Source: a virus. Taken from it: a stretch of DNA of 39,925 nucleotides. Below the pieces are notes generated by a model. That model had not been told where the DNA came from and made no database searches. It was given only the letters and a program-made list of their open reading frames with translations. The stretch spans positions 1 through 39,925 of the IMG/VR virus record IMGVR_UViG_3300030060_004758. One strand, 5' to 3'. A program made the position numbers and the translations under genes. Below are positions 3,182-39,925 of this stretch, in pieces (position 1 is the stretch's first letter; each line of letters begins with the position of its first letter).

Positions 3182-3202
3182 TTGTGCAATAGCACTTACA
3201 TT

Positions 3203-3288
3203 GGGGTTTTTCCAGTAATAACAGGGAAAGTTTTCACGCCGGAAATAGTGGAGGGTTTGCCATGAACCTGTTTCCCCAGTGGTAGGAG
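3203..3288 (+). ncRNA. Candidate structured RNA element, copy A
   Basis: Three helices can be drawn: P1 GGGG 3203-3206 with CCCC 3274-3277; P2 ACAGG 3221-3225 with CCTGT 3267-3271; P3 GTGG 3248-3251 with CCAT 3260-3263 closing an 8-base loop. Unpaired blocks TCCAGTAATA (3211-3220), CGGAAATA (3240-3247) and GAA (3264-3266) are identical in the copy at 16614-16698, while P2 and P3 change by compensatory substitutions. A weaker pseudoknot, TCAC 3234-3237 with GTGG 3279-3282, lies next to the ribosome binding site TAGGAG (3283-3288) of the following gene. Class and ligand are unknown. Confidence 0.7.
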
Positions 3289-3296
3289 TTGATGAT

Positions 3297-3494
3297 ATGA
3301 TAGAAGAAATTATAGAACTTTTAGAAAGTAATGAGTTAGATGATTGGTCAGAAGAAATTAGTTACTTGAATTCACTCAAGCGTAAGTTACATCGTATAGA
3401 AGAAGTAGCACGAAAGTGGTTCAACTACGGTGACTATTCATATGCTGAGATATTAGAGATACTTGGCGTTGAGTTTGGTAAAGAGGAGGAATAA
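3297..3494 (+). CDS. Small unknown protein, paralogue of the next gene (65 aa)
   Basis: The ATG at 3297 is chosen because TAGGAG at 3283-3288 is well spaced; the in-frame GTG at 3279 would lie inside the RNA element. The product is acidic and helical. Its VARKWFNYGDYSYAEILEIL (about 39-58) aligns with ICLEWYRFGCEDGYYNEEG...EILRLLGV of the next gene, so the two are likely diverged duplicates. It is the first gene after RNA copy A and could be under its control. It ends in EEE, which encodes the next binding site. Function unknown. Confidence 0.6.
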   Translation: MIEEIIELLESNELDDWSEEISYLNSLKRKLHRIEEVARKWFNYGDYSYAEILEILGVEFGKEEE

Positions 3495-10773: not shown

Positions 10774-12226
10774 AGCAGCAATGTTGTCACGCAGACTCAA
10801 AGAATCTTATACAAGGTGGAGGCGTGAAACCGAATCAAGATCGGAAGCCTTCAAAATATCAATCAAAGCATTGAAAGACAGACTCAGTGAACGAGTCGAA
10901 GTAATTGAAGATGTTATTGACATACTTTATCCGAAGTATTCTAAATACGAACAGCAGTTCGTTTCAGTGCTTTGGGTCAGAGATAACGTGTGTTCAGAGT
11001 TAGGCATATCTCCCATACACTGGAACATGGTCATGACGGGTAAACCAATCGTGCCATACTTGGCAACCGAGTCTTCTGAGATAGGAGGAGAGGGCTGGAC
11101 AATTAAGCAAGCGTTGATGGCTATGCACCGTATCAAAGACGAGGGTGTGCTGTCAATGGCTCAAAACATGAATGAAGATGAAGCGCTGTTGTTTTGGTCT
11201 AGGGCAATGGGTGAACAGGAACCTATGCCTATCGACAGATTCTTGCAGATGCTTTCGTATCTACCTGAGTCAAATGGCATAACCAATCTACAAAGCATTC
11301 GCCACCAACTGATAACCATGAGTCCTCAAGAAGTGGCAATCAAGATCTTACACAAAGAATTGGTTACACTTAACAATGAACTGTTCCTTCAGCCGGGGCA
11401 ACCATTCGTAGCACCTATCTTCCAAGCGTGGACATCGATGGTAGCACCATCAGGAGTGTATGCAGATGTGATGAGAGGTTCAAGGAGATACTTACACATC
11501 ACTGAATTTCCAAAGGGTTCTTTCAGAGGAGTGATTTACTCTAGGGACAGACAAGTGGTGGGCAAGATACACACATTCGACTTACCGTTCCAAGCCGAGG
11601 CCATCCTTGAAGTGGAAATGTCCGGTGATAAAATCACCAAGATAACCGATGCTTATTCAATTGGAGAAGATTGGGAGGTTTACAGAGTAAACAGGTCAGA
11701 GCGTCTTTCTAGGGTAAACAGTTTAGAACCAACTGTCCCTGTTGACGGTGGTAAACTAGTAGAGAGTGGGTCAGACATTGGCTCTTTACTGAATCAACTA
11801 GACGGTAGAGAAAGACTGCGCCTAGTTAAGTCCGGCCCAGTGGAGATGCGTGATAGCAACGGATGGGTTGTAATTCAACAGGCGTTCCACATACACTTCT
11901 TAGTAAGTGCAATTCGTAAGGATGAGGAGTTCGATACAATCCTGCGCCTGTCTGTATTAGATGGTTATGAGACATTTGAGGTAGGCGAGAGCAAGGTTCC
12001 GACTGATGTAGCCCAACACATAAGAACGAGGCTGGGTCAACAGGGGGTGCTTGCGGGGAAATCTTGGATGCCAATAGATGAATATGGTTTGGTTGTAGTA
12101 GCCGAAGTAACCGGCTTCGATCTTGATAAGATGAAAGCCACACACTTGAACATACTATATGCAGATGATACACTGGGTTACAGTGATACATCACAACTGA
12201 CAGATTTGATAGAATTAGCGGAGTGA
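10760..12226 (+). CDS. Large unknown protein of the replication region (488 aa)
   Basis: It opens at GTG 10760 inside the previous gene; ATG 10781 (MLSRRLKES) is an alternative. The N-terminal third is helical (RRETESRSEAFKISIKALKD). The centre carries GVYADVMRGSRRYLHI, then AILEVEMSGDKITKITDAYS, loosely resembling the order of motifs I and III of ATP-dependent ligases, but the catalytic lysine (KxDGxR) is replaced by M. The last third is beta-rich. It could be an inactive nucleotidyltransferase-like or OB-fold protein; I do not assign it. Confidence 0.65.
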   Translation: MLLAEAAMLSRRLKESYTRWRRETESRSEAFKISIKALKDRLSERVEVIEDVIDILYPKYSKYEQQFVSVLWVRDNVCSELGISPIHWNMVMTGKPIVPYLATESSEIGGEGWTIKQALMAMHRIKDEGVLSMAQNMNEDEALLFWSRAMGEQEPMPIDRFLQMLSYLPESNGITNLQSIRHQLITMSPQEVAIKILHKELVTLNNELFLQPGQPFVAPIFQAWTSMVAPSGVYADVMRGSRRYLHITEFPKGSFRGVIYSRDRQVVGKIHTFDLPFQAEAILEVEMSGDKITKITDAYSIGEDWEVYRVNRSERLSRVNSLEPTVPVDGGKLVESGSDIGSLLNQLDGRERLRLVKSGPVEMRDSNGWVVIQQAFHIHFLVSAIRKDEEFDTILRLSVLDGYETFEVGESKVPTDVAQHIRTRLGQQGVLAGKSWMPIDEYGLVVVAEVTGFDLDKMKATHLNILYADDTLGYSDTSQLTDLIELAE

Positions 12227-14310: not shown

Positions 14311-15590
14311 ATGAAGAAAGAAAATTACCGGAGGGCGTATTAGAACGTCTACAAGGTTATGCAGAAAGAGCAGGAATAAAGGTAGGAGAAGCAGCAAATA
14401 AATACTTTGCTTGGATTGAGCAAGAATTTGCTGTCTCTAACTGGAAAGATGAAGATGATGATTTGTTGATTGAATGGGCAGAGATGTTCACACTTGAGAC
14501 ACGTAATCTAGGCATTGGTGGCGGCAGCAGTCGTGAAACTGTGACCTTTGTTGGACAGTTTGTTGGAATAGATGACAAGGTCAACGACTACCGAGAAAAT
14601 GCAAGAGAAAGGGCGATTTCGGCTTATCGAAACAATTCAGGTCAAGCCATAGATAACGGCTTGATTGGGATTGTAAAGGCGAAAGACGGAGTATGGCACG
14701 TTAATGGTGAGCCAACTAAAGAGCGCATCGACGGTGACAAACTACCTTGGTTTGGACTACAAGTTGACGGAGATCTAGTGTGCTTAATGAACGACAAAGG
14801 GGGACCTATGGCCCCTACAAGCAAAGTGCGCAACTTGTATCTATTAGGTAATGATAAATCTAAGTTCAATAAATCTATAATTGAATGGCGTATATCATTA
14901 ACGGGTAACAATATGTTTGAGGAATATGAGTTAGGTAGACCAGTCACATGCCAAGTGATATTACCTAACAAAGAAGATTCAAACACAGTTTACACTAATC
15001 GAGACTTCTGTAAGACTATGGTTTACACAGACACTTTCGTGGATGAGGAAGACAGAGTATTACTAAGACCTGAAAAGTATTTAGTGAATACAGGTATGCA
15101 TGATTTATTCGTAGAACTAGATGAACTAAGTGAAGTATACGATGAGCGTAAGTTGCAGAGTAGCACAGGTAACTATTACGGACCTACAATTATTACTAAG
15201 GGATATGTTAGTAGACTCAATTTAGAGGCCATGGATAACATCTACGACCAAACGGGTAGAGCGTTTAGGTTAAGCGTAACTAGCCCCAACCTACAACGTA
15301 AGTTTGGCAAGGACTCAGCAATGTCTGAAGTAACCGTATTCGTGCCCGGTAGAGTTTATGATGACACTCATCCATTTGAGTTCAAAGATACTTATGGTGA
15401 ATGGCAACCTTATGCAGAAAAGACCCCAGTGATAATATTTGGTAGGATTCGCATGAGCGTTTACAATGACCAAACTACCCCTAACCTAACAGCATTCGGC
15501 ATCTATGTGCCATCTCGCACAGCGAGGCCGGGTGCAAAGGGCGGGGACACTAGTTTAGACCAATTTAAGAGCAACGGAGAGGAATACTGA
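14307..15590 (+). CDS. Probable single-stranded DNA-binding protein (RPA-like)
   Basis: 427 residues: an acidic helical start (residues 1-70), then long beta-rich stretches compatible with several OB folds (ETVTFVGQFVGIDDKV, EVTVFVPGRVYDD, KTPVIIFGRIRMSVYN), ending in a flexible GAKGGDTSLDQF tail. Position between the clamp loader and the RecA-like ATPase is where replication or recombination ssDNA-binding proteins commonly sit. No zinc finger as in many archaeal RPAs. The assignment rests on fold impression and context. ATGA overlap with the clamp loader, single-base overlap (TGATGG) with the ATPase. Confidence 0.5.
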   Translation: MNEERKLPEGVLERLQGYAERAGIKVGEAANKYFAWIEQEFAVSNWKDEDDDLLIEWAEMFTLETRNLGIGGGSSRETVTFVGQFVGIDDKVNDYRENARERAISAYRNNSGQAIDNGLIGIVKAKDGVWHVNGEPTKERIDGDKLPWFGLQVDGDLVCLMNDKGGPMAPTSKVRNLYLLGNDKSKFNKSIIEWRISLTGNNMFEEYELGRPVTCQVILPNKEDSNTVYTNRDFCKTMVYTDTFVDEEDRVLLRPEKYLVNTGMHDLFVELDELSEVYDERKLQSSTGNYYGPTIITKGYVSRLNLEAMDNIYDQTGRAFRLSVTSPNLQRKFGKDSAMSEVTVFVPGRVYDDTHPFEFKDTYGEWQPYAEKTPVIIFGRIRMSVYNDQTTPNLTAFGIYVPSRTARPGAKGGDTSLDQFKSNGEEY

Positions 15591-16603
15591 TGGCAGGATT
15601 TGGAGCAATGAAAAAGAAAGAAGAAGAAGATAGAGCAGAAGCGATCTTCCAAGCAGAAGCGGCAGAAGTAGACAAGCAAATTGTAGAGGAACAATTTCCT
15701 GTGGTTGCTTCTAACAGCAACTTCCCTAACTTGGAGGCAGAGTTTGCACAGCAGACTAACCCTAACAGGATGAGACCTAGTAAGGTAATGTGTGGTGTGG
15801 TTGGACACGAGGGCACCGGCAAGTCCGGTATCGTGATTGACGGTCACATGCATAGATACCCTGAAGGAATGCTTTGGGCGATAGATTTCGATAACGGGGC
15901 GATGGCTTGCAAAGAAGCACACTACCCCGGAGAAGATGAGCGTATCAGAGTATGGTCACCTTGGGTTTTCCAAACTGCTGACCGCACTGCTTACGACTAC
16001 CCAGCGACACATAGCCGTATGATGGAATTACTACGATTCGCCGTAGAGTATGCAGAGAAGCAGACTAAGCCTGACTTTGATGGTAGGAAACTCAATACTC
16101 TCTTGGTTACATCCGTAGACCAATGGGATTCAGTTTGTATGAACAACATGAAGATATTCGATCTAGAGGACAACAATGTGAAAGATGCAGTTGGTGCTGC
16201 TAAGGTTGAAGTCAACCAAGGTATCGGCTGGAATTGGAGCATTAGGTCCACTAGATTCAAACAAATGACAGCACTGTGTCAGAAACTAAACGCTCTCGGT
16301 GTAGACATATACTGGGAAACTCACCTCAAAGAGGACAAGGATGGCAAGGTCGGATTCGACGGCTGGAAGTTCGCATGGGAAAAGAGCGCAAACAATGACC
16401 TGTTCCAAATCATTTGGTGTCACGCTAACAAAGTGCGTGGAGAAGATGGCAAGGAAACAGGCGAGATCAGACACACAGCAGAGTTCTTCAAAGAAAAGAC
16501 CAACTCTGACCTAAAGGGTCAGGAGAGGCTTTACTTCGTCACTAAGAAGGGCGAGCCTGCGCAATGGCACGGGCTTGCTGAACTGCGTGAAGGAGTTCTT
16601 TGA
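15590..16603 (+). CDS. RecA-fold ATPase (Sak4 / AAA_24-like)
   Basis: After a charged helical leader (FGAMKKKEEEDRAEAIFQAE), Walker A GHEGTGKS lies at 72-79, followed by the Walker B-type strand NTLLVTSVDQWDSV and a later ETHLKEDKDG segment. This short RecA core with no N-terminal HhH domain fits phage Sak4-type ATPases, which work with an ssDNA-binding protein in strand annealing or recombination, consistent with the neighbour upstream. RadA is an alternative, but its HhH domain is absent. Codon use is richer in AAG/GGC than most neighbours. RNA copy B starts 10 bases after the stop. Confidence 0.75.
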   Translation: MAGFGAMKKKEEEDRAEAIFQAEAAEVDKQIVEEQFPVVASNSNFPNLEAEFAQQTNPNRMRPSKVMCGVVGHEGTGKSGIVIDGHMHRYPEGMLWAIDFDNGAMACKEAHYPGEDERIRVWSPWVFQTADRTAYDYPATHSRMMELLRFAVEYAEKQTKPDFDGRKLNTLLVTSVDQWDSVCMNNMKIFDLEDNNVKDAVGAAKVEVNQGIGWNWSIRSTRFKQMTALCQKLNALGVDIYWETHLKEDKDGKVGFDGWKFAWEKSANNDLFQIIWCHANKVRGEDGKETGEIRHTAEFFKEKTNSDLKGQERLYFVTKKGEPAQWHGLAELREGVL

Positions 16604-16613
16604 TAACACCTCC

Positions 16614-16698
16614 GGGGTTTGTCCAGTAATAAGCGGAAATCTACCTAAACGGAAATAGTGACTTTCCCTCACGAACCGCTTCCCCCACCACTTAGGTG
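16614..16698 (+). ncRNA. Candidate structured RNA element, copy B, upstream of the clamp gene
   Basis: P1 GGGG 16614-16617 with CCCC 16682-16685; P2 AGCGG 16632-16636 with CCGCT 16676-16680; P3 GTGA 16658-16661 with TCAC 16669-16672, 7-base loop. Conserved unpaired blocks TCCAGTAATA (16622-16631), CGGAAATA (16650-16657) and GAA (16673-16675) are the same as copy A. TACCTAA (16642-16648) pairs with TTAGGTG (16692-16698), six Watson-Crick pairs plus a wobble, forming a pseudoknot that contains the ribosome binding site (AGGTGAT) of the ATG at 16704. This is the architecture expected of a translational switch. Ligand unknown. Confidence 0.75.
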
Positions 16699-16703
16699 AT
16701 ATT

Positions 16704-17462
16704 ATGACAAGATTCAAAGTAAACAATAAGGATTTGACCCAATTTATAACTGGCTTTGGTAAAGAATTACCGGACATAGTATTCAGAGTAAAAGATGATT
16801 ATATTGAATCAGCAGTTGGTAAAGATACTCATTACATTAGACGTAGGTTGAATGTCAAAGAAGCGAAGCCGGGCGAAATTGCTGTAAGTGATGTTACTAG
16901 GCTACTATCGTTCCTAAAGGCTACAAAGGCAGGAGAGGTCACAATAAACCAAATGAATAAAACAACTGTTTTGCATGTAGCATGTGGTAAATCTACTTTA
17001 CAATTACCAACATCCTCCTATCTAGTAACACAAAAGCAACTACCTTTGATAGAGAGATTAGTCAAAGAAGGTGAGAAAAATATGTGGCAAAAATGGGCCA
17101 ACTTTAGCCTAGATTGCCACGGAATAGTAAACGGGGAGGACTTCGCACCAGCGGCACAGTTTGACAAAGTTATAGGTGGTAAGTTTTCTTGTAAGACTGC
17201 TTTCGATCCCGCAAGTGGATTCGTAATACATGCTGGTGGAAAAGCAAAGGGCAAGATGTTTGTTCGTATTCCAGTAACTAATTCTGAGTCTAAAAATACC
17301 ACTGTCAAATCTGCATTTGCTTATTGGTTACCAGCACTTTTGTCCAATCTACCGCCGGGGCCACTTAATCTTCATACTGGAGATGAAACGGTGCTTGTGT
17401 TAGAACAGGGTGACACTGGTTTCCTGTTAGTTGTGATGGACCAAGAATACGAGGAGGACTAA
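16704..17462 (+). CDS. Sliding clamp, PCNA-like
   Basis: 252 residues, the usual PCNA length. The pattern of the two-domain clamp is visible: FKVNNKDLTQFITGFGKELP at the start, the LSFLKATKAGEVTINQMN segment, a long inter-domain stretch, and the final VLVLEQGDTGFLLVVMDQE where PCNA has its last strand. It is very divergent, so the call leans on context: clamp loader upstream, PolB immediately downstream. The ring tethers polymerase and nucleases to DNA. Translation may be controlled by RNA copy B, whose pseudoknot covers the binding site. Confidence 0.65.
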   Translation: MTRFKVNNKDLTQFITGFGKELPDIVFRVKDDYIESAVGKDTHYIRRRLNVKEAKPGEIAVSDVTRLLSFLKATKAGEVTINQMNKTTVLHVACGKSTLQLPTSSYLVTQKQLPLIERLVKEGEKNMWQKWANFSLDCHGIVNGEDFAPAAQFDKVIGGKFSCKTAFDPASGFVIHAGGKAKGKMFVRIPVTNSESKNTTVKSAFAYWLPALLSNLPPGPLNLHTGDETVLVLEQGDTGFLLVVMDQEYEED

Positions 17463-24908: not shown

Positions 24909-25462
24909 TGAAAGGGCAGCACTTTGTAGTTTTTGCTTTTGGTCATGAATTTTGTCACATGATGAATTCTCCTGAAGTTTTAGTTATTGTGAGTGACAAT
25001 TACACCTCAATCTACACTAGTCATCATTCATATCCAAATTCAAAGCCAGTGAATTACACAAAAATCAAAAATGAACTGGCAGAAATAATTGATAATGGTG
25101 GTATATTAGTTATGAAAAATACCGAACTTTACGGTTTGACAATAGATTGGATGGGTATAACTAAAAATAATCCTTCCGAAATGGTAGACCATATAGAAAA
25201 CCACGTAATTGAGTTAGATCTTGAATTAAAACGATTGACTGAACAGAAATTAAATTACAGTGATATAGATTTAAACTATTCTTTGCACACAGAAATGTAT
25301 GCACCTATATGGCAGAAAGGAAGCAAAGACAAAATAATACAAGAATGCATATCAGATGCAAACATTATACTCACACTGATTAAGCGTTGTAGCGACGCAG
25401 GTAATATAAAGGTGAGGTTAAGAAATGAGAAAACACCAATGGAGTTTGATGTAGAATGGTAA
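24908..25462 (+). CDS. Unknown protein (184 aa)
   Basis: ATG 24908 follows GAGGAGGAAGAATA. The first half ([20 protein letters not shown]) has an HEFCH segment; despite the likeness to HExxH it lacks the right spacing for a zinc protease. The middle is helical ([20 protein letters not shown]), and the C-terminal part ends in short strands. It is more AT-rich than the chaperonin that follows. No family recognised. Confidence 0.6.
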
Positions 25463-26952
25463 ATAACGGAGAGCAACAACAAACAGCACAGAGTCTAAAC
25501 ATTCGTGCTGCAAAAGCAATAGCAGATACGGTAAGAACGACACTTGGCCCAGCAGGAATGGACAAGATGATGGTAGATGGAGGTGGTAATGTCATTGTAA
25601 CAAATGATGGGGCTACAATTCTACAAGAACTTGATGTTTCGCATCCCGGTGCTAAAATGATTATTGAAGCGGCCAATACGCAAGAAAGCATGTGCTATGA
25701 TGGCACTACTAGCACAGTTGTATTAGCAGGTCAGTTACTAAGTAATACAGAATCTCTGTTTGAAAAGGGTTTACACCCCAATGTCATTTGTAAAGGTTAC
25801 AGACAAGCAGCACAATGGGCAGTAGAGCATATACAATCATTGTCACAAGCAGCCAAACCTCATCTGAAACATGTGGCTCAAACATCAATCACTGGTAAAT
25901 CATTAGAATCTGCCATGGAACATGTTAGTGGACTATGTGTAAAGGCAGCAGAGTTAGCCGGTGGCGATTTTGAACGCATACGTGTCCTGTGTCAGCCCGG
26001 TGGAGGCTTAGAAGACTCAACATGCTTCTCAGGTGTGGTTTTGCACAAGGAGTTTATGTTACCTGCTATGCCATTATTGCAAGATAAAGCATTGTTAGTT
26101 AATACTGGATTAAGCAACAAAAAGAATGAAGATAACGTGCAAGTATCACTTGGATCTGCTGCTGAATACCAACAGTATCAGCAAACTACGACTAGAGACA
26201 TTTGGGTGAAGAAAGCAGAGGCTATCATTAGCCGACTCCCTGAAGGAGGCGCATTATTTGTTAGAGACCATGTGAATGAAGTAGTTGCTGCTACACTAGC
26301 AAAGGCGGGCATCAGTGTCGTGCAACGTCTTCCTGAGAGCGACTTGACCGCACTTGGTTTACTTCTAAATACAACTGCTGCTCATACCATAGAGGATTTA
26401 GGAGATGCAGTTGACGCAAATGTAGAATGCACTACTATCGGTGATATGAAATATGTAGTAGTAAAAGGAGAGGGGGAAGTTACTACCCTCATCCTTAGAG
26501 GGGCTACCAAACAGACTCTCGATGAAACAGAGCGTGGTTTTGAAGATGCCCTTGGAGTAGTATGTCTAGCATACAATACTCTTGAGGTCGTGCCGGGTGG
26601 AGGTGCAGCATACCTTAACTCCGCTATCAATCTACGAAGCAGAGCGGCAGAAATAGGTGGTCGTGCGCAAATGGCAATTGATGCTTTTGCCGATGCACTT
26701 GAAACAATACCTGCTACTATCGCTGAAAACGCAGGTCACGATCCTCTTGATACAGTATTAGCACTTAGAAATGAACACTTATCAGGTAACACAGATTTTG
26801 GTCCTAACATTGAAAATGGAGGCACTTGTTCTATGAAATCGGCTGATGTATGGGAGCCACTGAATCTAGTCAAGCAGGCTATTCAGTCTGCAAGCGAGGT
26901 CACTATCAGCATTCTGCGCATCGATGACATCATCGGTAAGCGTGGCGAGTGA
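25456..26952 (+). CDS. Group II chaperonin (thermosome subunit)
   Basis: ATP-site motifs are clear: [14 protein letters not shown] (from residue 25), NDGATIL (50-56), DGTTS (82-86), PGGG (380-383) and the catalytic-type Asp near 409 in [13 protein letters not shown], then [12 protein letters not shown]. The usual GDGTT glycine before the Asp is Tyr here. At 498 residues it is about 40-50 shorter than archaeal subunits, mostly at the two ends. It would form a double-ring folding chamber, alone or mixed with host subunits. It overlaps the gene at 24908 by seven bases and stands last in the plus-strand block, next to the structural genes. Confidence 0.95.
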
Positions 26953-30411: not shown

Positions 30412-33400
30412 TTACTCCCCGCTATGGTCTCCTGTATTATAAGATGCATCACCATCACTACCTTTTGGATGTAAAGTTTGGCTATGTCTTGGTTGCACAT
30501 TATAATCTCCTTCTTCATCATCAGGAGATTTGCGACTAGCATCTGCTCTAAAATGCTCAAGTGTGTTCTCTGACATGACTACTCTTGCTACTGGAGAGCG
30601 TATATCAGTCTTGTCGTAACCAGTCACATCAACGCCCTCTATCTTAGGGCCTTGACTTATAGGCACAGTTACACTAGACACTGGATTCATAGAATAGACA
30701 GGTGCATATGGGGGGTTACTGGGTGTGCCAGTCAAAGCCCCCGGTGCGTCACTCGTAAATAGCCCATACTTACCTCCAGCAGTCGCTCTATAAAAGTTAG
30801 AACCGACTTGGTCAGCACCACTTTTCATCACGGGGGCAGGTCTGAAAAACTGCACATGTTTGCTGTCTAACACTTGTGCTGGCCTATATAAGAAATCTAT
30901 TTTAGAATCTGCAAAGTTTGTATTTTGTATCGTAGAATCATGATTAAAGTTTTGATAAGGGTTAGACGATTGACTTAAACTTACAGTGTTTATTGTATAT
31001 TTTTCAGAAAGGTAACTTTCTACTTGCTTCTGTTCAAAGTCAGTTAACGCACGATTGTAAAATATAACCTCTGCCATTTGCCCGGTCAATTCAAACGAAC
31101 CAACATCCCCTAAGATAGGAGTTGCAGAAGTGTTAGTTTTCTTGGTAAACACTGCATTAGATGTTGCTTCAGAATTACCATTAACAAACAGCGTTTGAGT
31201 AGTAGATCCGCCTCCAGCACCATCACTACCCTCCATTTTTAGAGTAACGATAGAAGGAGTATTAGGGACTACCGTATCACTAGAAGCAGAAATAGTAGTT
31301 TGACCTGAACCTGTGCCAGTTCTCCATTGCCAATAGTTGTTACTACCTGTCATTCTCGCATACAATAACCAACCAGTATTTGAAGTATAATTATCTATTA
31401 TTCCATGATAATTACCATCGTCGGCATCGACAGTAGCCACTACAAATACAGTCATATTGTTAGGATTAAGTGTAGAACTAAATGCAGTGTTTAGTGCATC
31501 ATCGCCATCGAAATGAACTAACGGTTGGTTGTTATAATCGCTGTCACTTGCTACGAAATCAGGTTGTTGGCTTACGGTTGACTGGGTAAAGTCATGTCCA
31601 TGACCACTTAAATCGCTCCACAGGCTGACAGCATCTCCATCATTTAAATTAAGACTACCTGCTTTTAACCAAAGGACCATTCCGTTTTTAGGGAGTTCAA
31701 GACCCCAACCCTTTACATCCAATATACCTGAATACTTACTCCATTCCATAATATAAGTTCCACCTAAAGGCCAATAGGCATGAGCATTAGAGAATCTTGT
31801 TATACCTGCGACAGGATTAGCACTAAAATCTAGTGCAGTCAAATCAAAGTTGCCTAAAGTTCTACTCCCTCCTGTCATAGCACCTCTAAGGTTTGTTCTT
31901 TGACCAACCTCCCTATCAGTATGTAGGCTGGCTGCTTCCGTGGACATGATAACATACTCTCTGCTAACTCCATCATTCAATTCTGATATGGTGTCAACGT
32001 CTAACCCCATCCTTATGTCATCTCTAGCAACAGGCTCTGCAAATCTAGTGTCTGCTGTGACCGTTTCTACACCTTCACCTACTGAAGCACTTGATTTTAG
32101 TAAACCGTCATCCTCTGCTAAATCTAACCTTGCACTAATACCTCTTTCTATTTCACCCGACTGTAAGACTTCGTTACTTGGTCTTACTAAGCCTTGACCA
32201 AAAGCAGGCTCTGCTGTGCTATGTGATAACACTATCCCAGTAGCATCATGAACTTCACTGACATTCATCAACATGCTTTCATTAAACACTGTCGGCCAAC
32301 GGACTCCTCTACCGTCACCTCTATCACCAACACGCATGGCACTTGCTGGATTGAACCAATCAGCCACGCCCATATTGCTAGCGTCATTATTAGCAGTGTT
32401 TGCGTTACCGCTATATCGGTCATTACCATCGCCCGCAAACAAATCATGCGCTGCTGGTCTATGTGTTACATTAGTGTCGGCATAAGCATCTTCAGGATCC
32501 CAAGAAGGTCTAATTCCAAAACCTCTAACTGGGAATCTTCTAACATCCTCTCCACGAGTATTACCCCACCAATCAATCAAGTAAAATTTGTGAGCAAGCG
32601 CTAAATCAGAAGTATTCATTCCTGCTATATCACCCGGATATTCTCTCCTAACCGTAGAAGGGTTTCTTATTGTTCTAACTGCACATCCAAACGGCTGAGT
32701 CATTCTCCTTCCATCACTATATCTTACTTGTCTGCCTATTTGGTCCTGATTGAGAAGCGCACTTACTTGTGTCAACCTTTCCAATATACCTATGTAAGTG
32801 GCGTTGAAAGTTATATCGGACTGAGAACCAGTGTCAGTTCCGACATAATCCCACCCATTGCTTTTGCTATCTTGTTGAACAAATGGGCCATGATAATAAC
32901 CAAGCAGAGCGTTTGCATTAGCCACTTCTAACCATCCACGAACATAATTTGCATATCGAGGTCTGTTATACGCTTGTCTAATGCCGAATCTGTAACCAAA
33001 GCAATAGTTGCGAGCGTAAGCCGATGCAGAAGTCATTTCAGCGTAAGTGCGAGTTCTAATTCCAGTGTTGTCATCAAAACCACCACAGTCCATGCCATGA
33101 GTTTCACCACCCCAACCTATCAGGGCAGTTGCATAAGATTCTAGTCTACTTACCGCTCCGCCCCCATGAGAGCCACCGGGCCAAAATCCTGCAAAGTTGA
33201 ACTTAGTAGAATTGTATGTTCCTCCCTGATGATTTAGTGTTCCACTACCATCCACTAATGCATCAATTTGTGCCGCTGTGTATATGGTGCCGTCATGACT
33301 TAGCGCAGTACTCGCATCATTATCATGATCGTGCGGAGGTGCAACCCACTTCATAGCGAATCCAAACGGCCCTTTGCTAGCAACATAATTGAAATCATGA

Positions 33401-36400
33401 TAATGTATAGTTTCAAAGTATTCAGGTAAATGATTGTAAGGCTTCTTATCAACAGGTGTATCTGCTACACCAGTTTTATCATAAAAGTTACGAGTTCCAC
33501 CAGTAGCAGTGTCACTATACCAAGTAAACGGTCTTCCTAAATTAGGATGCCATAAGCACAAATAAGCATCAGGTAAATGCAAACTGTTTGTATCACCAGT
33601 GCCATCCCCTAAAGATTTACTAAAGGTGCTTTCTAAAGGTCTTGGGGGGAATAATCTAGTTGCTATACTAGACTTCACATCAGTGAATATCGTGTCTGAT
33701 GCGTATGTATTGTAAGGTCTAGTTAATTTTAGTATAGTATTATCCCCTGAGTCAGAGTCACCATTGAGATTTGCCCAAAATTCAGCGTCACCAGTAACAC
33801 TAGAAAATGTAGTTGATGCGCCTAATGTAGCATATGCGAGTGTTCCGGTTCTGTTTCCGTAGGTTGCAGTATAAGTTATACCATCTTTTGTATATTCTAA
33901 TTGTTCACCATAATAAGGTTGAACTGGAAACAAATCATTGTTATCTACGGTTATGGTGCTTCCTCCTTGGTTATCGGAGAGAACTACGCAAGTTGGGTTG
34001 AGGCTTCTATTGCGCCTATGCACTTCATATATGTCCATAAATGATGTAGGATAACCTGCTATTGTCAATTGTGCGCCAACACAACCGTAAGACATTCTAC
34101 AAAACTCATAATAATTATCAGGTTTATGCCATTCAAGATGTTTAAATTTGTCAGCACCACTAGCAGTTGCGCCCTCATTGTGGAGAATTCCCCACCAAGG
34201 TATAGTCACAGTGTAGCCCGGAGTGGCACTACTAAACATACCGGGCATGTAAGGTAAACTTCTACGTGTGAGAGATGGAGATGTAGTTTCTTGGACCCCT
34301 AATGGGTTGTATAACCCTAACACAGGCATGTTAGTAAAGTGGCTACCGGAATCAGGCTCTATGTCTAATATAACTTCGTTAATTATAACTTCGCATCCTC
34401 TTACGTCTGCCATCATTGCCTCTGCTAAAATCAGAGTGTGCGAGCCATTAGTAGAGATGTCCTGTTCAATTGCAATCACAGTGTTGATTTGTTGCCCTGT
34501 CAATTCTATTGATTTATTGCCGCTCTCTGAAGGTGCTTTATTTTCAGTAGCGTGATTTAAGTGGAATCCTTTAAGTTGTTGAGCAAATAGATTAGGCTGT
34601 ATAATGATTTGATATGCTCCTACTTCCATAGGATCTGGGAAGTGGTTATTTAGTGTGTAAGTTCCTCCTGCTTCTAATACTAATTCATGTCCACCTGCTG
34701 CATTCTTTGTTCCTGCGTCACCTACTGAAGCAGCAACACCATATCCTTCATACTTGATTTTCGTTTCAGTTAGTAGAGTGAATCCTCCTCCGTGTATATC
34801 TGATGGAGAAAACGCTGCTGTTGGACCGGAGAAGTAAATGTAAGGGTCACGCCCCGGCTCATGAGTAGTAGATGTAGCAGTTGTGCTAGTCCTAGTTCCT
34901 TCATTAGTGCCAACTAAACTGTCAATAAATGGAGGGTTGTTGGAAGTCCTACAACTCTCATTTAGTTGATACAACCTTTGGTAAGCAGGGTGAGCGTAAT
35001 GTCCGGGCAGCAACGCCATAGTTGGGTTAACATAGTGATGGCCCATTCTAGGTATTGGCATAGGTGTCATCTTTGGTTTAGTGATATTGTCATGAGCAGT
35101 TGACGGTCTAACCATTGCACCTGTATTCAAAGGTAAACTAGTAAACAAAGTATGCCAGTCTGTTATCTTCATGTCAGGACTCGCACCGCTGTATTCACTG
35201 TGGTCACGAAGTCTACGTGAAGCAAAAATACGAGTGCTGCCAGCAGGTAAATAATAACTAGGTACGACTTTTAAACCAGTTTTACCTGTAACAAATTCTA
35301 CAAAGTTAGGACTGTAAACAACTCCAGTAAATTTGTTAGTGCCTATGCCAGTATAAGATGCAATCACTCCTTTATTGGTAGTAGGGTCATATACTCTTAG
35401 GAAATATCTGCCTCCACTTAATTCTGTTGCATCTGTCCAAGTTGCAGTTTCAGGTGTAGAAGTTACGCTAATTTCTGTTCCACTAAACCCACTATAAGAC
35501 AACTCATCTACGTCATCTCTATGAGTCATACTGACTCCCATTTTGGTTACATGGAAGTATAGGCTTCTGTCATGAGGTTCATACGATGTTGACAAAGGCT
35601 TGTTTTGTGTATGATCTTGCCAACCTTCCAACGTAGATGCTGGGAAGTCTAATCTATGTTCATGCTTATCAATTGAAACATCGGTTCCATCTTGACTGAT
35701 ATGTTCCCAACCATTATTTTCCCAAGTCGGCCATAATCTAGGACCTGCATATTTATTATCAAACATGTCCGTGATATGTTGAACTGGTTGAGCAGGGTGT
35801 TGTAACCCTCCTGACCCAATGGTTTCATTTTGATATGCTTGTATTCTATCAAATCCGGGCCTAACAATTATGTTGCCGGGTATTTCATCAGGGTTGGGTA
35901 ATCTTATCTTCATGTTAGGTGACACACCCGTGCCCGCTAAGGCTGGCGCTAATCCTTCAATTTCTCTATCACTAACGTGCCTAAAGTCCATAATCACAGT
36001 GCCAAGTGGAGAACCACCCTCTAAGCGATGCTCTTGCCCTGTATCATCTACAACTAACATACTTTGGAATTGCATTTCTTCATTTGGAATCAATAACGCA
36101 TTTTTGATTTCTAAAGGATGTTGCTCTGCTAATTGTGGATGAGACAATTCTTGGGCTTGAATTATTGGGAACATTGCAGAATTAGTAGATTCAAAACTAA
36201 ATCTAACATTACCCAGCATTTTTTCTCCAACTAATTTGTAACTGCCGCCGTCTTTTCGTTTTACCCAAGGCACCGCTCCAAGACCTCTAGCGTTAGCGGC
36301 TGGCATGGTTAGGCTCCCTCCATCCATTCGCTTCCAAACAATCTGCTCTGCTGAAAAATTACGAGCAGCAGATCGCTTGTGATAATAGCCGAATAATCCG

Positions 36401-39400
36401 GGGTGTGGCATAGCAGTAGTAGCAGCACTTGGATTTAAATAATCCAATAAACCACTGTTACCTATACATTCAACCCCGTGTGAAGAAAACTGCTCATGGA
36501 AGTTAGAGCCTTTTACAATGCTTTCATCCCAAAACAAATCTCCAGTTTCAAAACTACATGGATTTGCTTGAACCATATCACCTGCCTGTATAGCACGATG
36601 CCAATCTCCGTCAGTAGGCGCATCACCTGTTGCTGGATAAGTGTCAAAAGGTCTGACAAACCCTGAGTGCATTTGTGCTTCAACACGAGGACCAGCATTA
36701 GCGTATGCAACATATCTTGACTTGTTGTGAACCTTAGATGTGTCCCATTGAATAGTTCCTGCGTGTAATATATTACCATTTTCTTTAGCCATCAACCAAT
36801 CGCCTGAACACAGTATTCCATCTCTATCAGCCTTGGCAATTAAAGGCAACTCACTTTCATGAGTTATTGCTATCAAATGCCTCGATGATAAACCATTAAC
36901 ACAGAAATCTGAGAAGGTAGCAGTAGAAGTATCACCTGTTCCCACAGGAGCAGACGATGCTAAACAAGTTTCAGCAGCACCGTAAGGATTGAACCCAAGG
37001 AACGGGTGCCAAGCGCCAAGTCCAGCAGGGTAAACTCCCGAACCTATTTGAGCGCCAGTGTAAGAGTTTAGATACGAATATGCTTCACCTGCCCAGCCTA
37101 CTGCACCAACTGGCTTAGTTCTATCAATTGCATCAATTAGACCATTGTAGTGAACTTGGCACATATGGTCACGGGAAGTAACAGAACTGTCGTTATTAAA
37201 TCGATGCGTTCCAGCCTTTGTCCAAATATAAGCCTTGAAAGTATTATCAACATCAACATCTCTATTATTTTGAGGGTTAGTTACATTTGTATTAGCCTTC
37301 AAAGTAAAAGTAAGAGTTGCTTCAGGGGCACCTCCTTGTACAGTTATTGTGTCTCCTGATGAATAACCTGAGCCTGCTTCTACGATAGTTACTGCCCCAG
37401 TGTCTAAAGGACCGGGCGCACCTGAAGAATTTGTTACTGATACCGATAGTCCAGTCCCAGTTCCTCCGCTTGTAGGGAAAGTGTTAGTGCCGGGCGGATA
37501 GCCATCACCACGAGAATTGATAGAAGCAGATGCTATCGAAGATGTTACTGGACTTTTGGCGAGTGTAAAGGTAGTGTTAGGAGCGCTAACGGAGTGACTA
37601 ATATAAGGAGCAAAGCCCGAAAGATTACCATCACTCACTCGTAACCATCCATAGGGGGGTAAAGTCGTAGCAGTGCTAGTAACTCTTAGTGACGCAGGTG
37701 TTGAGCCTGACTCAGGAGTGTATTGATTAACAGTAACTTCTACCCATCCGTAACGATCTTGCTTGTGTGAATTTTGCATGGAAGGCAAGAATGTCCCGCC
37801 GATTGCTTTCAAAGGGTCTTTACCGGGGAATGTATTTATTGCCGCACTAATTACCGCACCTAATTCTTCTGCATTTTGAACACGAGTAGCATCAATCAAG
37901 ACTACATTTGAATCGGCTGCTTGGTCATCATCAGAACCAAAAGCAGACAAGTATGCTTCTGCTAAAAGTCCACACGGTCTAAATGCAGTCACATTATGTT
38001 TGTTAGCACTACCCGTGGCTAACCTGCCATTTTCTACCGGATGCTTTGGATTAATATTTACGTGATTGTCAAGGAAATGGCCTCCGGGGTGGTAACCACC
38101 ATCCATATGCCAAATTGCAAACGCCTTTTTAGTTGCACTGTGAGTTGCACTTTCTAAAGAATTTCCAGCCAAATCTGTGAATAAATGATTGAATGGATGA
38201 GCAGTAGGAGGTAGCAATAAACTTCCAGTAGTAAAGTCGGCACCTTCATAGTAAAACGCTTTGTTAAAAGTGTGTGCGAAAGTATCACCGCTGCTAGCAT
38301 GCACTGACACACTTGGGAATCCTTTAGTAGGCTCCCAATTCATTTCATAATTAAAACCACTAAGTTTATTCTTTTGGAAAAAAGATGTTCTAGGAAGATG
38401 GGCTGAAGCAGATAAAGTTCTATTGAAACCACTAACAAAGTCCTCACCGTTTGTCAGTTGATTTGGTAAGAATGAATGGTTAGAAACATTTCCACCTATG
38501 TTAATTGGAACAGCACTGTAACCGTTACCAGTAGTTACTATGTTTGCTCCTTGCGGCTCAAAGGCAGCAGAATTGTGAGGGAATGCATGTCCGGGGCCAA
38601 ACACCATATACACAGTTTGGTCACCTTCATCACTGTTGTGACTATACCTTGCGTGTGGATGAGCGAATCTAAGAATAATTGGACTAGGTATATTGACTGG
38701 TACGGTGTTAGTTCCATCAGTGTAAGTTATACCTGTTGCCTTACTATTAGTTCCCTTTGCCATATCGAACGGTAATATTGCATCTTGATTAAAGAAAGGA
38801 GGATTATTTTTTCCTTTATGGTCATCTAAGTAAGGCGTTCCGGGGAACATAGCCAACATAGCATTTGTATCAAGTAGAGCATAAGATCCAGCAATTTCAC
38901 CTACATTTTGTAACCCAGCAGAGCCTGTTGGACCACCTGCGTAAGGATGTGTGTAAAAGTCTCCATAATCATTTTGAGTGCCATCATTAATATCCATTAC
39001 CACTCCACTAAAGCCGCCACCGAAATAAAGAGGCACCCAGTGGTCAGGACTATCTCTACCCCCTCTGAAGTAAAGGAAGGGGCTAGACATTTTGCTACCT
39101 GCTCTACGAATTCCATCTGTTTTTAAACCGTTTTTAACATCACCATTTCTCATCAATATGTCGGTAGCAGTAATAGTAGAAGCAAAGTTAGCACTTGCAC
39201 CTGTTGCAGCAGAATATGCTAATTTTATTTCTGCGTCAGAGCCATCTCTCTGACTTGTAACTTCAGCGTATTCTTCTGAACCTAGCCAAAGTGTAAATCT
39301 TTCACCCCAACTTTCAGCGTTATCTGAGCCGGGAACACAAATAGAATACAAAAAAGTGTTACTTGCTAAGGTTAAACGAGAAGCAGTTTTAGCACTAAGT

Positions 39401-39925
39401 TTAATCATTGGGCTATCTATTTTTGGAATTATATGGTCACCGGCGACACCAGTAAAGTTCTCACCACGAAGGTTTCTTTGCCAAGTAGTCGTATCAATAG
39501 AATTGTTCTGACTGTCTACTAAAATAGGAGTAGCAGTGTTAGCATTAGTTCCTTTGTAGCGAGTGGTTACTTGCAATACAGTCTCAGGAATATAACCCAC
39601 GTCTAATCTTGTGCCATCATCTCTCTCATTATCAGTAAGTCCACCAGTGTGCTTTGAAGTTACAGTTGCATCACTACTTGCGCCTTCCATTAAGCCCCAG
39701 TCTTTACTTCTTGAAACATTGAATAATTTACTAAGTGGAGTTCTGTTTTTGTTATTGACCTTAACTCTAATAGCAGTAGGGCTTACACCCCATTCACCTA
39801 GCGTTCTACCGTCAGGTGCAAGCATGCGAGTACAGTCAAAACTAGTCGCTGAAACACTTCTATCATTTGCATCAGGCATAGTCATTGCAAATTCAAACGC
39901 TGCTGCAATTACTTCATCTGTCAAT
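30412..39925 (-). CDS. Giant virion/adhesin-type protein, at least 3,170 aa (5' end outside window)
   Basis: The frame is open without a stop to the right edge; the apparent TTG at 39924 is only the first codon in the window. The sequence is rich in Gly, Ser, Thr, Asn, Tyr and His, poor in Cys and without a membrane segment. Near residues 800-880 are GSGYSSGDTITV-type turns known from structural proteins of marine phages. A laminin-G/concanavalin-like lectin domain spans about 2745-2980 (MVLWLKAGSLNLNDGD; WSDLSGHGHDF; GQMAEVIFYNRAL). It is probably a fibre or surface adhesin binding host glycans. Confidence 0.8.
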   Translation of the reverse strand, partial: LTDEVIAAAFEFAMTMPDANDRSVSATSFDCTRMLAPDGRTLGEWGVSPTAIRVKVNNKNRTPLSKLFNVSRSKDWGLMEGASSDATVTSKHTGGLTDNERDDGTRLDVGYIPETVLQVTTRYKGTNANTATPILVDSQNNSIDTTTWQRNLRGENFTGVAGDHIIPKIDSPMIKLSAKTASRLTLASNTFLYSICVPGSDNAESWGERFTLWLGSEEYAEVTSQRDGSDAEIKLAYSAATGASANFASTITATDILMRNGDVKNGLKTDGIRRAGSKMSSPFLYFRGGRDSPDHWVPLYFGGGFSGVVMDINDGTQNDYGDFYTHPYAGGPTGSAGLQNVGEIAGSYALLDTNAMLAMFPGTPYLDDHKGKNNPPFFNQDAILPFDMAKGTNSKATGITYTDGTNTVPVNIPSPIILRFAHPHARYSHNSDEGDQTVYMVFGPGHAFPHNSAAFEPQGANIVTTGNGYSAVPINIGGNVSNHSFLPNQLTNGEDFVSGFNRTLSASAHLPRTSFFQKNKLSGFNYEMNWEPTKGFPSVSVHASSGDTFAHTFNKAFYYEGADFTTGSLLLPPTAHPFNHLFTDLAGNSLESATHSATKKAFAIWHMDGGYHPGGHFLDNHVNINPKHPVENGRLATGSANKHNVTAFRPCGLLAEAYLSAFGSDDDQAADSNVVLIDATRVQNAEELGAVISAAINTFPGKDPLKAIGGTFLPSMQNSHKQDRYGWVEVTVNQYTPESGSTPASLRVTSTATTLPPYGWLRVSDGNLSGFAPYISHSVSAPNTTFTLAKSPVTSSIASASINSRGDGYPPGTNTFPTSGGTGTGLSVSVTNSSGAPGPLDTGAVTIVEAGSGYSSGDTITVQGGAPEATLTFTLKANTNVTNPQNNRDVDVDNTFKAYIWTKAGTHRFNNDSSVTSRDHMCQVHYNGLIDAIDRTKPVGAVGWAGEAYSYLNSYTGAQIGSGVYPAGLGAWHPFLGFNPYGAAETCLASSAPVGTGDTSTATFSDFCVNGLSSRHLIAITHESELPLIAKADRDGILCSGDWLMAKENGNILHAGTIQWDTSKVHNKSRYVAYANAGPRVEAQMHSGFVRPFDTYPATGDAPTDGDWHRAIQAGDMVQANPCSFETGDLFWDESIVKGSNFHEQFSSHGVECIGNSGLLDYLNPSAATTAMPHPGLFGYYHKRSAARNFSAEQIVWKRMDGGSLTMPAANARGLGAVPWVKRKDGGSYKLVGEKMLGNVRFSFESTNSAMFPIIQAQELSHPQLAEQHPLEIKNALLIPNEEMQFQSMLVVDDTGQEHRLEGGSPLGTVIMDFRHVSDREIEGLAPALAGTGVSPNMKIRLPNPDEIPGNIIVRPGFDRIQAYQNETIGSGGLQHPAQPVQHITDMFDNKYAGPRLWPTWENNGWEHISQDGTDVSIDKHEHRLDFPASTLEGWQDHTQNKPLSTSYEPHDRSLYFHVTKMGVSMTHRDDVDELSYSGFSGTEISVTSTPETATWTDATELSGGRYFLRVYDPTTNKGVIASYTGIGTNKFTGVVYSPNFVEFVTGKTGLKVVPSYYLPAGSTRIFASRRLRDHSEYSGASPDMKITDWHTLFTSLPLNTGAMVRPSTAHDNITKPKMTPMPIPRMGHHYVNPTMALLPGHYAHPAYQRLYQLNESCRTSNNPPFIDSLVGTNEGTRTSTTATSTTHEPGRDPYIYFSGPTAAFSPSDIHGGGFTLLTETKIKYEGYGVAASVGDAGTKNAAGGHELVLEAGGTYTLNNHFPDPMEVGAYQIIIQPNLFAQQLKGFHLNHATENKAPSESGNKSIELTGQQINTVIAIEQDISTNGSHTLILAEAMMADVRGCEVIINEVILDIEPDSGSHFTNMPVLGLYNPLGVQETTSPSLTRRSLPYMPGMFSSATPGYTVTIPWWGILHNEGATASGADKFKHLEWHKPDNYYEFCRMSYGCVGAQLTIAGYPTSFMDIYEVHRRNRSLNPTCVVLSDNQGGSTITVDNNDLFPVQPYYGEQLEYTKDGITYTATYGNRTGTLAYATLGASTTFSSVTGDAEFWANLNGDSDSGDNTILKLTRPYNTYASDTIFTDVKSSIATRLFPPRPLESTFSKSLGDGTGDTNSLHLPDAYLCLWHPNLGRPFTWYSDTATGGTRNFYDKTGVADTPVDKKPYNHLPEYFETIHYHDFNYVASKGPFGFAMKWVAPPHDHDNDASTALSHDGTIYTAAQIDALVDGSGTLNHQGGTYNSTKFNFAGFWPGGSHGGGAVSRLESYATALIGWGGETHGMDCGGFDDNTGIRTRTYAEMTSASAYARNYCFGYRFGIRQAYNRPRYANYVRGWLEVANANALLGYYHGPFVQQDSKSNGWDYVGTDTGSQSDITFNATYIGILERLTQVSALLNQDQIGRQVRYSDGRRMTQPFGCAVRTIRNPSTVRREYPGDIAGMNTSDLALAHKFYLIDWWGNTRGEDVRRFPVRGFGIRPSWDPEDAYADTNVTHRPAAHDLFAGDGNDRYSGNANTANNDASNMGVADWFNPASAMRVGDRGDGRGVRWPTVFNESMLMNVSEVHDATGIVLSHSTAEPAFGQGLVRPSNEVLQSGEIERGISARLDLAEDDGLLKSSASVGEGVETVTADTRFAEPVARDDIRMGLDVDTISELNDGVSREYVIMSTEAASLHTDREVGQRTNLRGAMTGGSRTLGNFDLTALDFSANPVAGITRFSNAHAYWPLGGTYIMEWSKYSGILDVKGWGLELPKNGMVLWLKAGSLNLNDGDAVSLWSDLSGHGHDFTQSTVSQQPDFVASDSDYNNQPLVHFDGDDALNTAFSSTLNPNNMTVFVVATVDADDGNYHGIIDNYTSNTGWLLYARMTGSNNYWQWRTGTGSGQTTISASSDTVVPNTPSIVTLKMEGSDGAGGGSTTQTLFVNGNSEATSNAVFTKKTNTSATPILGDVGSFELTGQMAEVIFYNRALTDFEQKQVESYLSEKYTINTVSLSQSSNPYQNFNHDSTIQNTNFADSKIDFLYRPAQVLDSKHVQFFRPAPVMKSGADQVGSNFYRATAGGKYGLFTSDAPGALTGTPSNPPYAPVYSMNPVSSVTVPISQGPKIEGVDVTGYDKTDIRSPVARVVMSENTLEHFRADASRKSPDDEEGDYNVQPRHSQTLHPKGSDGDASYNTGDHSGE
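30985..31695 (-). other. LamG/concanavalin-A-like lectin domain within the giant protein
   Basis: The order LWLKAG, WSDLSGHGHDF, PLVHFDGDDALN, MTVFVVATVD, TLFVNGN, GQMAEVIFYNRALTDFE and QVESYLSEKYTI is the standard pattern of LamG-type lectin domains attached to secreted and viral surface proteins. These bind sugars or surface proteins. Confidence 0.75.

Follow-up and report, generated by a model that had tools for sequence, protein, structure and literature searches.

The window, which is the whole stretch of 39,925 nucleotides of the virus record IMGVR_UViG_3300030060_004758 that was analysed, carries two copies of a structured RNA, here named type A, that form one family with relatives in other virus records. 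Comparison of these sequences shows that the fold is an H-type pseudoknot within a closing stem, that it is formed on the sense strand, that it lies just before Shine-Dalgarno sites and that it is used ahead of different genes.

An earlier note, made from the sequence alone, had placed the two copies at 3203-3288 and 16614-16698. This held for both copies, with slightly different extents, as the paired core ends at 3277 (not 3288) and at about 16686 (not 16698); copy 2 has an extra cytosine, and its P1 partner aligns best at 16683-16686. The pattern TCCAGTAATA-N(10-30)-CGGAAATA occurred exactly twice in the window and not at all in 100 dinucleotide shuffles. The three helices that had been described were confirmed: P1 is GGGG/CCCC in both copies, P2 is ACAGG/CCUGU in copy 1 and AGCGG/CCGCU in copy 2, and P3 is GUGG/CCAU and GUGA/UCAC, respectively. 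A crossing helix, an A.G/G.A pair extending it and an outer helix P0 had been missed. The features of both copies and their surroundings are as follows.

3199..3202, + strand: copy 1, P0 5' strand CAUU, pairing with AGUG at 3278-3281 (own-versus-cross flank test)
3203..3206, + strand: copy 1, P1 5' strand GGGG, covarying in homologues
3207..3220, + strand: copy 1, conserved J1/2 UUUUUCCAGUAAUA (column conservation)
U3211-C3213 (UCC) with G3241-A3243 (GGA), + strand: copy 1, crossing helix (pair counts)
3221..3225, + strand: copy 1, P2 5' strand ACAGG, pairing with CCUGU at 3267-3271
3226..3240, + strand: copy 1, 5' part of J2/3, with an A-rich start and then variable (alignment A7)
3241..3247, + strand: copy 1, conserved GGAAAUA, with GGA (3241-3243) as 3' strand of the crossing helix
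3248..3263, + strand: copy 1, P3 hairpin GUGG...CCAU (double changes)
3264..3266, + strand: copy 1, conserved GAA, opposite AUA
3267..3277, + strand: copy 1, P2 3' strand, conserved UU and P1 3' strand CCCC (3274-3277) (sequence, covariation)
3285..3299, + strand: Shine-Dalgarno GGAG (3285-3288) and AUG (3297-3299) of the small open reading frame (ORF) behind copy 1
15590..16603, + strand: P-loop ATPase gene before copy 2 (Walker-type GHEGTGKSG read directly)
16614..16617, + strand: copy 2, P1 5' strand GGGG (sequence, covariation)
16618..16631, + strand: copy 2, conserved J1/2 UUUGUCCAGUAAUA (sequence, covariation, column conservation)
U16622-C16624 with G16651-A16653, + strand: copy 2, crossing helix (pair counts)
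16632..16636, + strand: copy 2, P2 5' strand AGCGG, pairing with CCGCU at 16676-16680
16651..16657, + strand: copy 2, conserved GGAAAUA, with the non-canonical pair G16621.A16654
16658..16672, + strand: copy 2, P3 hairpin GUGA...UCAC (covariation)
16673..16686, + strand: copy 2, GAA, P2 3' strand, UC and P1 3' strand CCCC (16683-16686)
16694..16706, + strand: Shine-Dalgarno AGGUGAU (16694-16700) and AUG (16704-16706) of the clamp gene
16704..17462, + strand: PCNA-type sliding clamp gene behind copy 2 (structure model, Foldseek)

The AlphaFold2 model of the clamp reached a pLDDT of 90.9, and its best Foldseek matches were archaeal PCNA (E 2e-11). The ATPase before copy 2 had no Pfam or PHROG match. 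An inverted repeat, GTGC-AATA-GCAC, adjoins copy 1 at 3182-3198 of the window and is kept in the relatives G001 and G005, not in G009.

Fold and covariation of the type A RNA

In an alignment of 44 distinct rows (A7), 99.6% of the base-pair cells of P1, P2, P3 and the crossing helix were paired, and changes on both sides occurred in 13 of the 16 pairs. Cells with double changes numbered 141; shuffled controls averaged 38, and versions with slid partners did not exceed 20. Since A7 had been fitted to P1-P3, these counts lean towards those helices, and the crossing helix lies outside the model. The outermost P1 pair covaries (GC in 34 rows, AU in 5, UA in 4), and double changes were found at all five pairs of P2 and all four pairs of P3. 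At one P3 pair, 25 of the 44 rows have a G.U wobble; the wobbles appear on the sense strand and thus fit an RNA read from that strand. The claim that the two copies reflect a selected RNA fold therefore held, as homologues with covariation were found; the two copies by themselves were weak evidence, and the 44 distinct rows are strong evidence.

The crossing helix is UCC/GGA, with the variants CCC/GGG and UCA/UGA. Its pairing is kept through changes from UA to CG in three loci (L124, L209, and L210) and from CG to AU in L142, so that its support rests on few events, with one failed cell. The position next outward pairs as A.G (27 rows), G.A (5 rows) or U-A (4 rows). Together with P2 the crossing helix makes an H-type pseudoknot, the strands following each other in the order P1 5', crossing 5', P2 5', crossing 3', P3 hairpin, P2 3', and P1 3'.

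About 25 unpaired bases are nearly invariant, namely UUU, A, UAAUA, AAA after P2, AUA, and GAA; the conserved strands of the fold are UCCAGUAAUA and GGARAUA. Within GAA, the G and the first A are invariant in 38 of 38 rows and the last A is kept in 36 of 38. The GAA opposite AUA likely forms a non-canonical internal loop, the type of which is inferred. The variable stretch of J2/3 holds extra hairpins in some homologues.

The flanks of an element pair better with each other, as the outer helix P0, than exchanged or shuffled flanks do (permutation p < 0.00005; 0 of 300 shuffles), and kinship among the elements inflates this significance. P0 is present in most members and missing in most members of the helicase group.

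Readings of the element as an H/ACA RNA, a C/D box RNA or a K-turn were dropped by eye, as loop lengths and boxes did not fit. An HDV-like reading was likewise rejected: the helix order is generic for such pseudoknots, and GAA stands in the catalytic place without a cytosine.

Membership, genomic position, and viruses

The type A family comprises both window copies and their relatives, with at least 56 covariance-model matches above 40 bits in 46 IMG/VR records, a count that is the author's tally across several scans and includes the window. A virus record usually has one to three matches, and tandem pairs were found at three loci (L192, L196, and L232). The relatives were gathered by a strict pattern scan, by the neighbouring ATPase gene and by the covariance model R1 with further scans. 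The strict pattern scan of IMG/VR yielded three true relatives, and relatives of the ATPase gene yielded 49 loci with a directly readable gap between ATPase and clamp. The noise ceiling was set at about 28 bits, a score reached by chance within a set of 61 loci chosen by the first-strand motif alone; for this reason matches below about 30 bits were not trusted, and L212-L214 were left uncounted. L144, L146, L154, L156, and the second match in G052 are supported by synteny at the clamp site.

Several searches gave mostly chance matches or none. A first loose pattern scan returned 119 loci, all of which were unrelated sequence except L002, L007, and L032. In GTDB genomes, all 11 matches to a stricter pattern look like chance, with a best model score of 21 bits, and their printed surroundings lack the context of the element. 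None of 390 Thermoplasmatota genomes matched under stricter filters, in a search without a positive control, and no credible DNA match was found in INPHARED phages.

None of the 4227 families of Rfam 15 matched the window at the gathering score. With E relaxed up to 5, one sub-threshold chance match appeared near copy 1, on the opposite strand, and none near copy 2. The claim that the element stands outside known classes held in that no credible Rfam 15 family match was obtained. In the open-access literature searched, with subscription papers and preprints outside the scope, neither a description of the type A RNA nor any structured regulatory leader RNA in archaeal viruses was found. Type A is likely to be an RNA family not described before, belonging to the known category of structured leader RNAs; it matches no Rfam 15 family.

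Strong type A elements lie on the same strand as the next gene and directly ahead of it, except for L229 and the elements that come first in a tandem. In 28 of 30 cases the first suitable AUG follows 14-33 nt past the element, and the arrangement is looser in L246, where the AUG of the helicase is 61 nt away. The genes downstream encode the PCNA-like clamp, the ATPase or a small ORF before the clamp, a UvrD helicase, a small cysteine-containing ORF, an ORF starting MRPVRFLGG, and the small ORFs behind copy 1. In L209-L211 (G001, G005, and G009), the copy-1 site keeps the element, the Shine-Dalgarno and the AUG, the ORF behind them differs, and in G005 a gene of 70 aa is inserted ahead of the element. 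The element and the start are kept where the flanking genes differ, which links the RNA to the start behind it rather than to the gene ahead of it.

The exception to the leader position, L229:1515-1602 (- strand), is a lower-scoring element of 49 bits that follows a gene; more than 300 nt separate it from the next ORF of at least 60 codons, and it has an altered P3 and a long outer stem. Behind the copy-1-type site, L211 (2484-3700) and L212 contain runs of small ORFs, several of them starting MIDTDK or similar, which resemble a paralogous cassette of short proteins.

The window encodes an ERCC4 nuclease, a weak match to archaeal primase and an RFC-like clamp loader. The best-covered INPHARED relatives of its PolB are haloarchaeal viruses, and a related virus carries a TFIIB zinc ribbon. 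A thermosome-type (group II) chaperonin lies at 25456-26952 of the window, its best PDB matches being group II chaperonins and archaeal thermosomes. Together, the chaperonin, nuclease, primase, RFC, PolB, and TFIIB features point to an archaea-type tailed virus, and the hosts are likely archaea. A magrovirus-like identity is conceivable, as an inference that is not proved. An open frame of 3170 aa on the - strand (30412-39924) runs to the end of the window.

Exchange of RNA types at the clamp site

A differently built structured RNA, type B, occupies the gap before the clamp in L125-L128, L132, L138, L143, L145, L147, and L148. It consists of a UUCUUGGUAAGGUAAU strand, a GGGUAC/GUACCC stem, and a hairpin GACUCACCACGAGAUGAGUC, and its stems covary. 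Examples from the ATPase-clamp gap of close relatives are:

L125:11020-11105, type B
L127:2887-2980, type B
L147:10546-10640, type B
L148:6438-6538, type B

Covariation in type B was seen in P2 and P3, and the hairpin loop CACCACGAGAUGA is conserved.

Viruses with ATPases more than 85% alike carry either type A or type B at the clamp site. On the ATPase tree, the six labels need 13 changes, and for A and B alike the starred branches make a minimum of three changes unavoidable, which shows that the two types were exchanged repeatedly at this site. Both types also occur within one virus: in G005, the copy-1 site is occupied by type A and the clamp site by type B. Further types were found at the clamp site in L136 and in L139/L164; in some viruses the RNA is absent there and the gap nearly closed. 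A common function of the RNA types at the clamp site is a possibility that remains inferred.

At about 11008-11110 of L139, representing the L139/L164 type, a long perfect stem GGGGGAUAGGC/GCCUAUCCCCC surrounds an unusual interior. L136 has UUUUGGUAGAGUAAUA with GAGUGC/GCACUC at about 11050-11200. A divergent RNA before the clamp in L247 (about 1530-1640) has a different 3' half and a possible crossing helix of 7-9 bp, UUGCCAA/UUGGCAA. A crossing helix shared by types B, C, and divergent members was considered and not adopted, as its support is weak (permutation p 0.05; good cases L247, L149, and L154) and the proposed crossing pairs of type B are invariant.

Proposed function and rival explanations

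The reading preferred here, judged more likely than not in the absence of ligand, protein or expression data, is that type A is a cis-acting leader RNA that controls the expression of the next gene. The earlier note had suggested a cis-regulatory class, which is supported by position only (sense strand, before start codons, unrelated genes, and tandems); regulation is not shown. In the proposed mechanism, the RNA would form a closed capsule from the outer stem P0/P1, the conserved internal strand of 14 nt, and the pseudoknot of P2 and the crossing helix of 3-4 bp, with the small P3 hairpin predicted to stack on P2 via the AUA/GAA loop. By inference, the leader would influence expression of the gene behind it, with translation initiation as the most probable step. 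A factor, which could be a protein of the virus or of its host or else a small molecule, may bind the conserved unpaired core, and the bound rigid pseudoknot beside the ribosome-binding site would hinder ribosome loading. Repression by obstruction is preferred, following the example of the T4 gene 32 leader; the off/on direction is not shown.

General masking of the Shine-Dalgarno was not supported, as its pairing to the 5' flank with the stem closed was 0.38, compared to 0.49 with shuffled flanks. The site being less paired than with shuffled flanks, no general masking or expression platform is apparent, and factor binding with obstruction is preferred. In single cases masking is possible, such as copy 2, where CACCU (16607-16611) upstream can pair with AGGUG of the clamp Shine-Dalgarno. 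Type A shares with riboswitches a conserved aptamer-like core, covarying helices and a 5' leader position, with metabolite binding not shown; a switching expression platform in the form of general Shine-Dalgarno masking is not supported. Against a leader switch stand the position of L229, the missing P0 in the helicase group and the absence of a visible expression platform. The repeated swap for other RNA types is easier to understand if a precise binding pocket is immaterial, which counts against the preferred reading.

A close known arrangement is the gene 32 leader of T4, T2, and RB69, the translational operator for gp32, which is likewise a viral H-type pseudoknot upstream of the ribosome-binding site of a replication gene (PMC3014915); type A has this kind of pseudoknot in the same leader position. 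According to a 2010 review, the T4-type gene 32 pseudoknot was perhaps still the sole viral pseudoknot known for translational autoregulation (PMC3014915). What sets type A apart is the outer stem, the P3 hairpin and the presence of long invariant loops; it is used for many genes, at a distance of 14-33 nt from the AUG. The T4 pseudoknot, by comparison, is about 67 nt upstream, and an unstructured region rich in A+U comes after it. The two are not claimed to be related in sequence.

The SAM-II and preQ1-II riboswitches have an H-type pseudoknot in common with type A. PreQ1-II holds a hairpin in its last loop, and tandem copies are known for some riboswitches. In contrast to both, type A has no Rfam match and no general masking platform, and occurs in archaea-type viruses. 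The glutamine riboswitch (glnA/Downstream-peptide) has ACGGAAGUAGG...CCGAA, which loosely resembles CGGARAUAGUGG...CCAYGAA around P3 of type A; however, no Rfam match was obtained, and helix order and crossing helix differ. A likeness also exists to manA and wcaG, candidate cis-regulatory structured RNAs mostly from marine metagenomes and viruses (PMC2864571). These again gave no Rfam match, and their phages infect cyanobacteria, whereas the viruses of type A look archaeal.

Among the alternatives, the one that survives best is a specific version of the leader reading, in which type A would serve as a protein operator, bound by the clamp, SSB-like or polymerase product, through which replication genes are controlled autogenously as in the T4 gene 32/43 system. 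This is possible, with no binding data. Many viruses have the element in an operon of RFC, SSB-like, ATPase, clamp, and PolB genes, before the clamp or the ATPase, and the T4 proteins gp32 and gp43 provide precedents (PMC3014915). The gene behind the element is frequently the clamp, but also the ATPase, and other copies precede genes outside the operon (small ORFs, the UvrD helicase, and the small cysteine-containing ORF). Moreover, types A and B precede near-identical clamps, so that one protein would have to bind both.

A purely structural element of the mRNA is an unlikely reading; type A would then insulate the cistrons behind it, as a processing boundary, an exonuclease block or a protector of the 5' end, without sensing any factor. 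The closed outer stem in most members, the differently built replacements at one site, the free Shine-Dalgarno and the position of L229 behind a gene would suit such an element. However, about 25 near-invariant unpaired bases exceed what a generic block needs, and the core is kept among viruses that often share only 42-52% clamp protein identity with the window.

A self-cleaving ribozyme that cuts the polycistronic viral mRNA between genes, the other types at the site being other ribozymes, is very unlikely. The intercistronic place, the pseudoknot with invariant loops, the tandems and the replacement by other structured types would fit. Nevertheless, no Rfam 15 ribozyme family matched, so that membership in a known self-cleaving class is not supported, the element is positioned right by start codons rather than randomly between genes, and no invariant cleavage dinucleotide can be distinguished from general conservation.

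A repeat acting at the level of DNA (an origin, or a site of integration or recombination) would suit the several places per genome and the recombination at a locus, but is all but excluded by the many G.U pairs on one strand only, the single orientation relative to genes, the narrow distance to start codons, and the compensatory changes in a nested-plus-crossing fold.

The family is defined well enough for immediate in vitro testing, through a covariance model, an alignment of 44 distinct sequences, the crossing helix and a conserved core of about 25 bases. A bolder reading, to which slightly less than even credence is given, would make type A a widespread new class of riboswitch-like or factor-binding leaders in marine archaeal viruses, within a set of interchangeable modules before the clamp. 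The differently built RNAs swapped at one site in close relatives constitute a natural experiment on the purpose of the leader.
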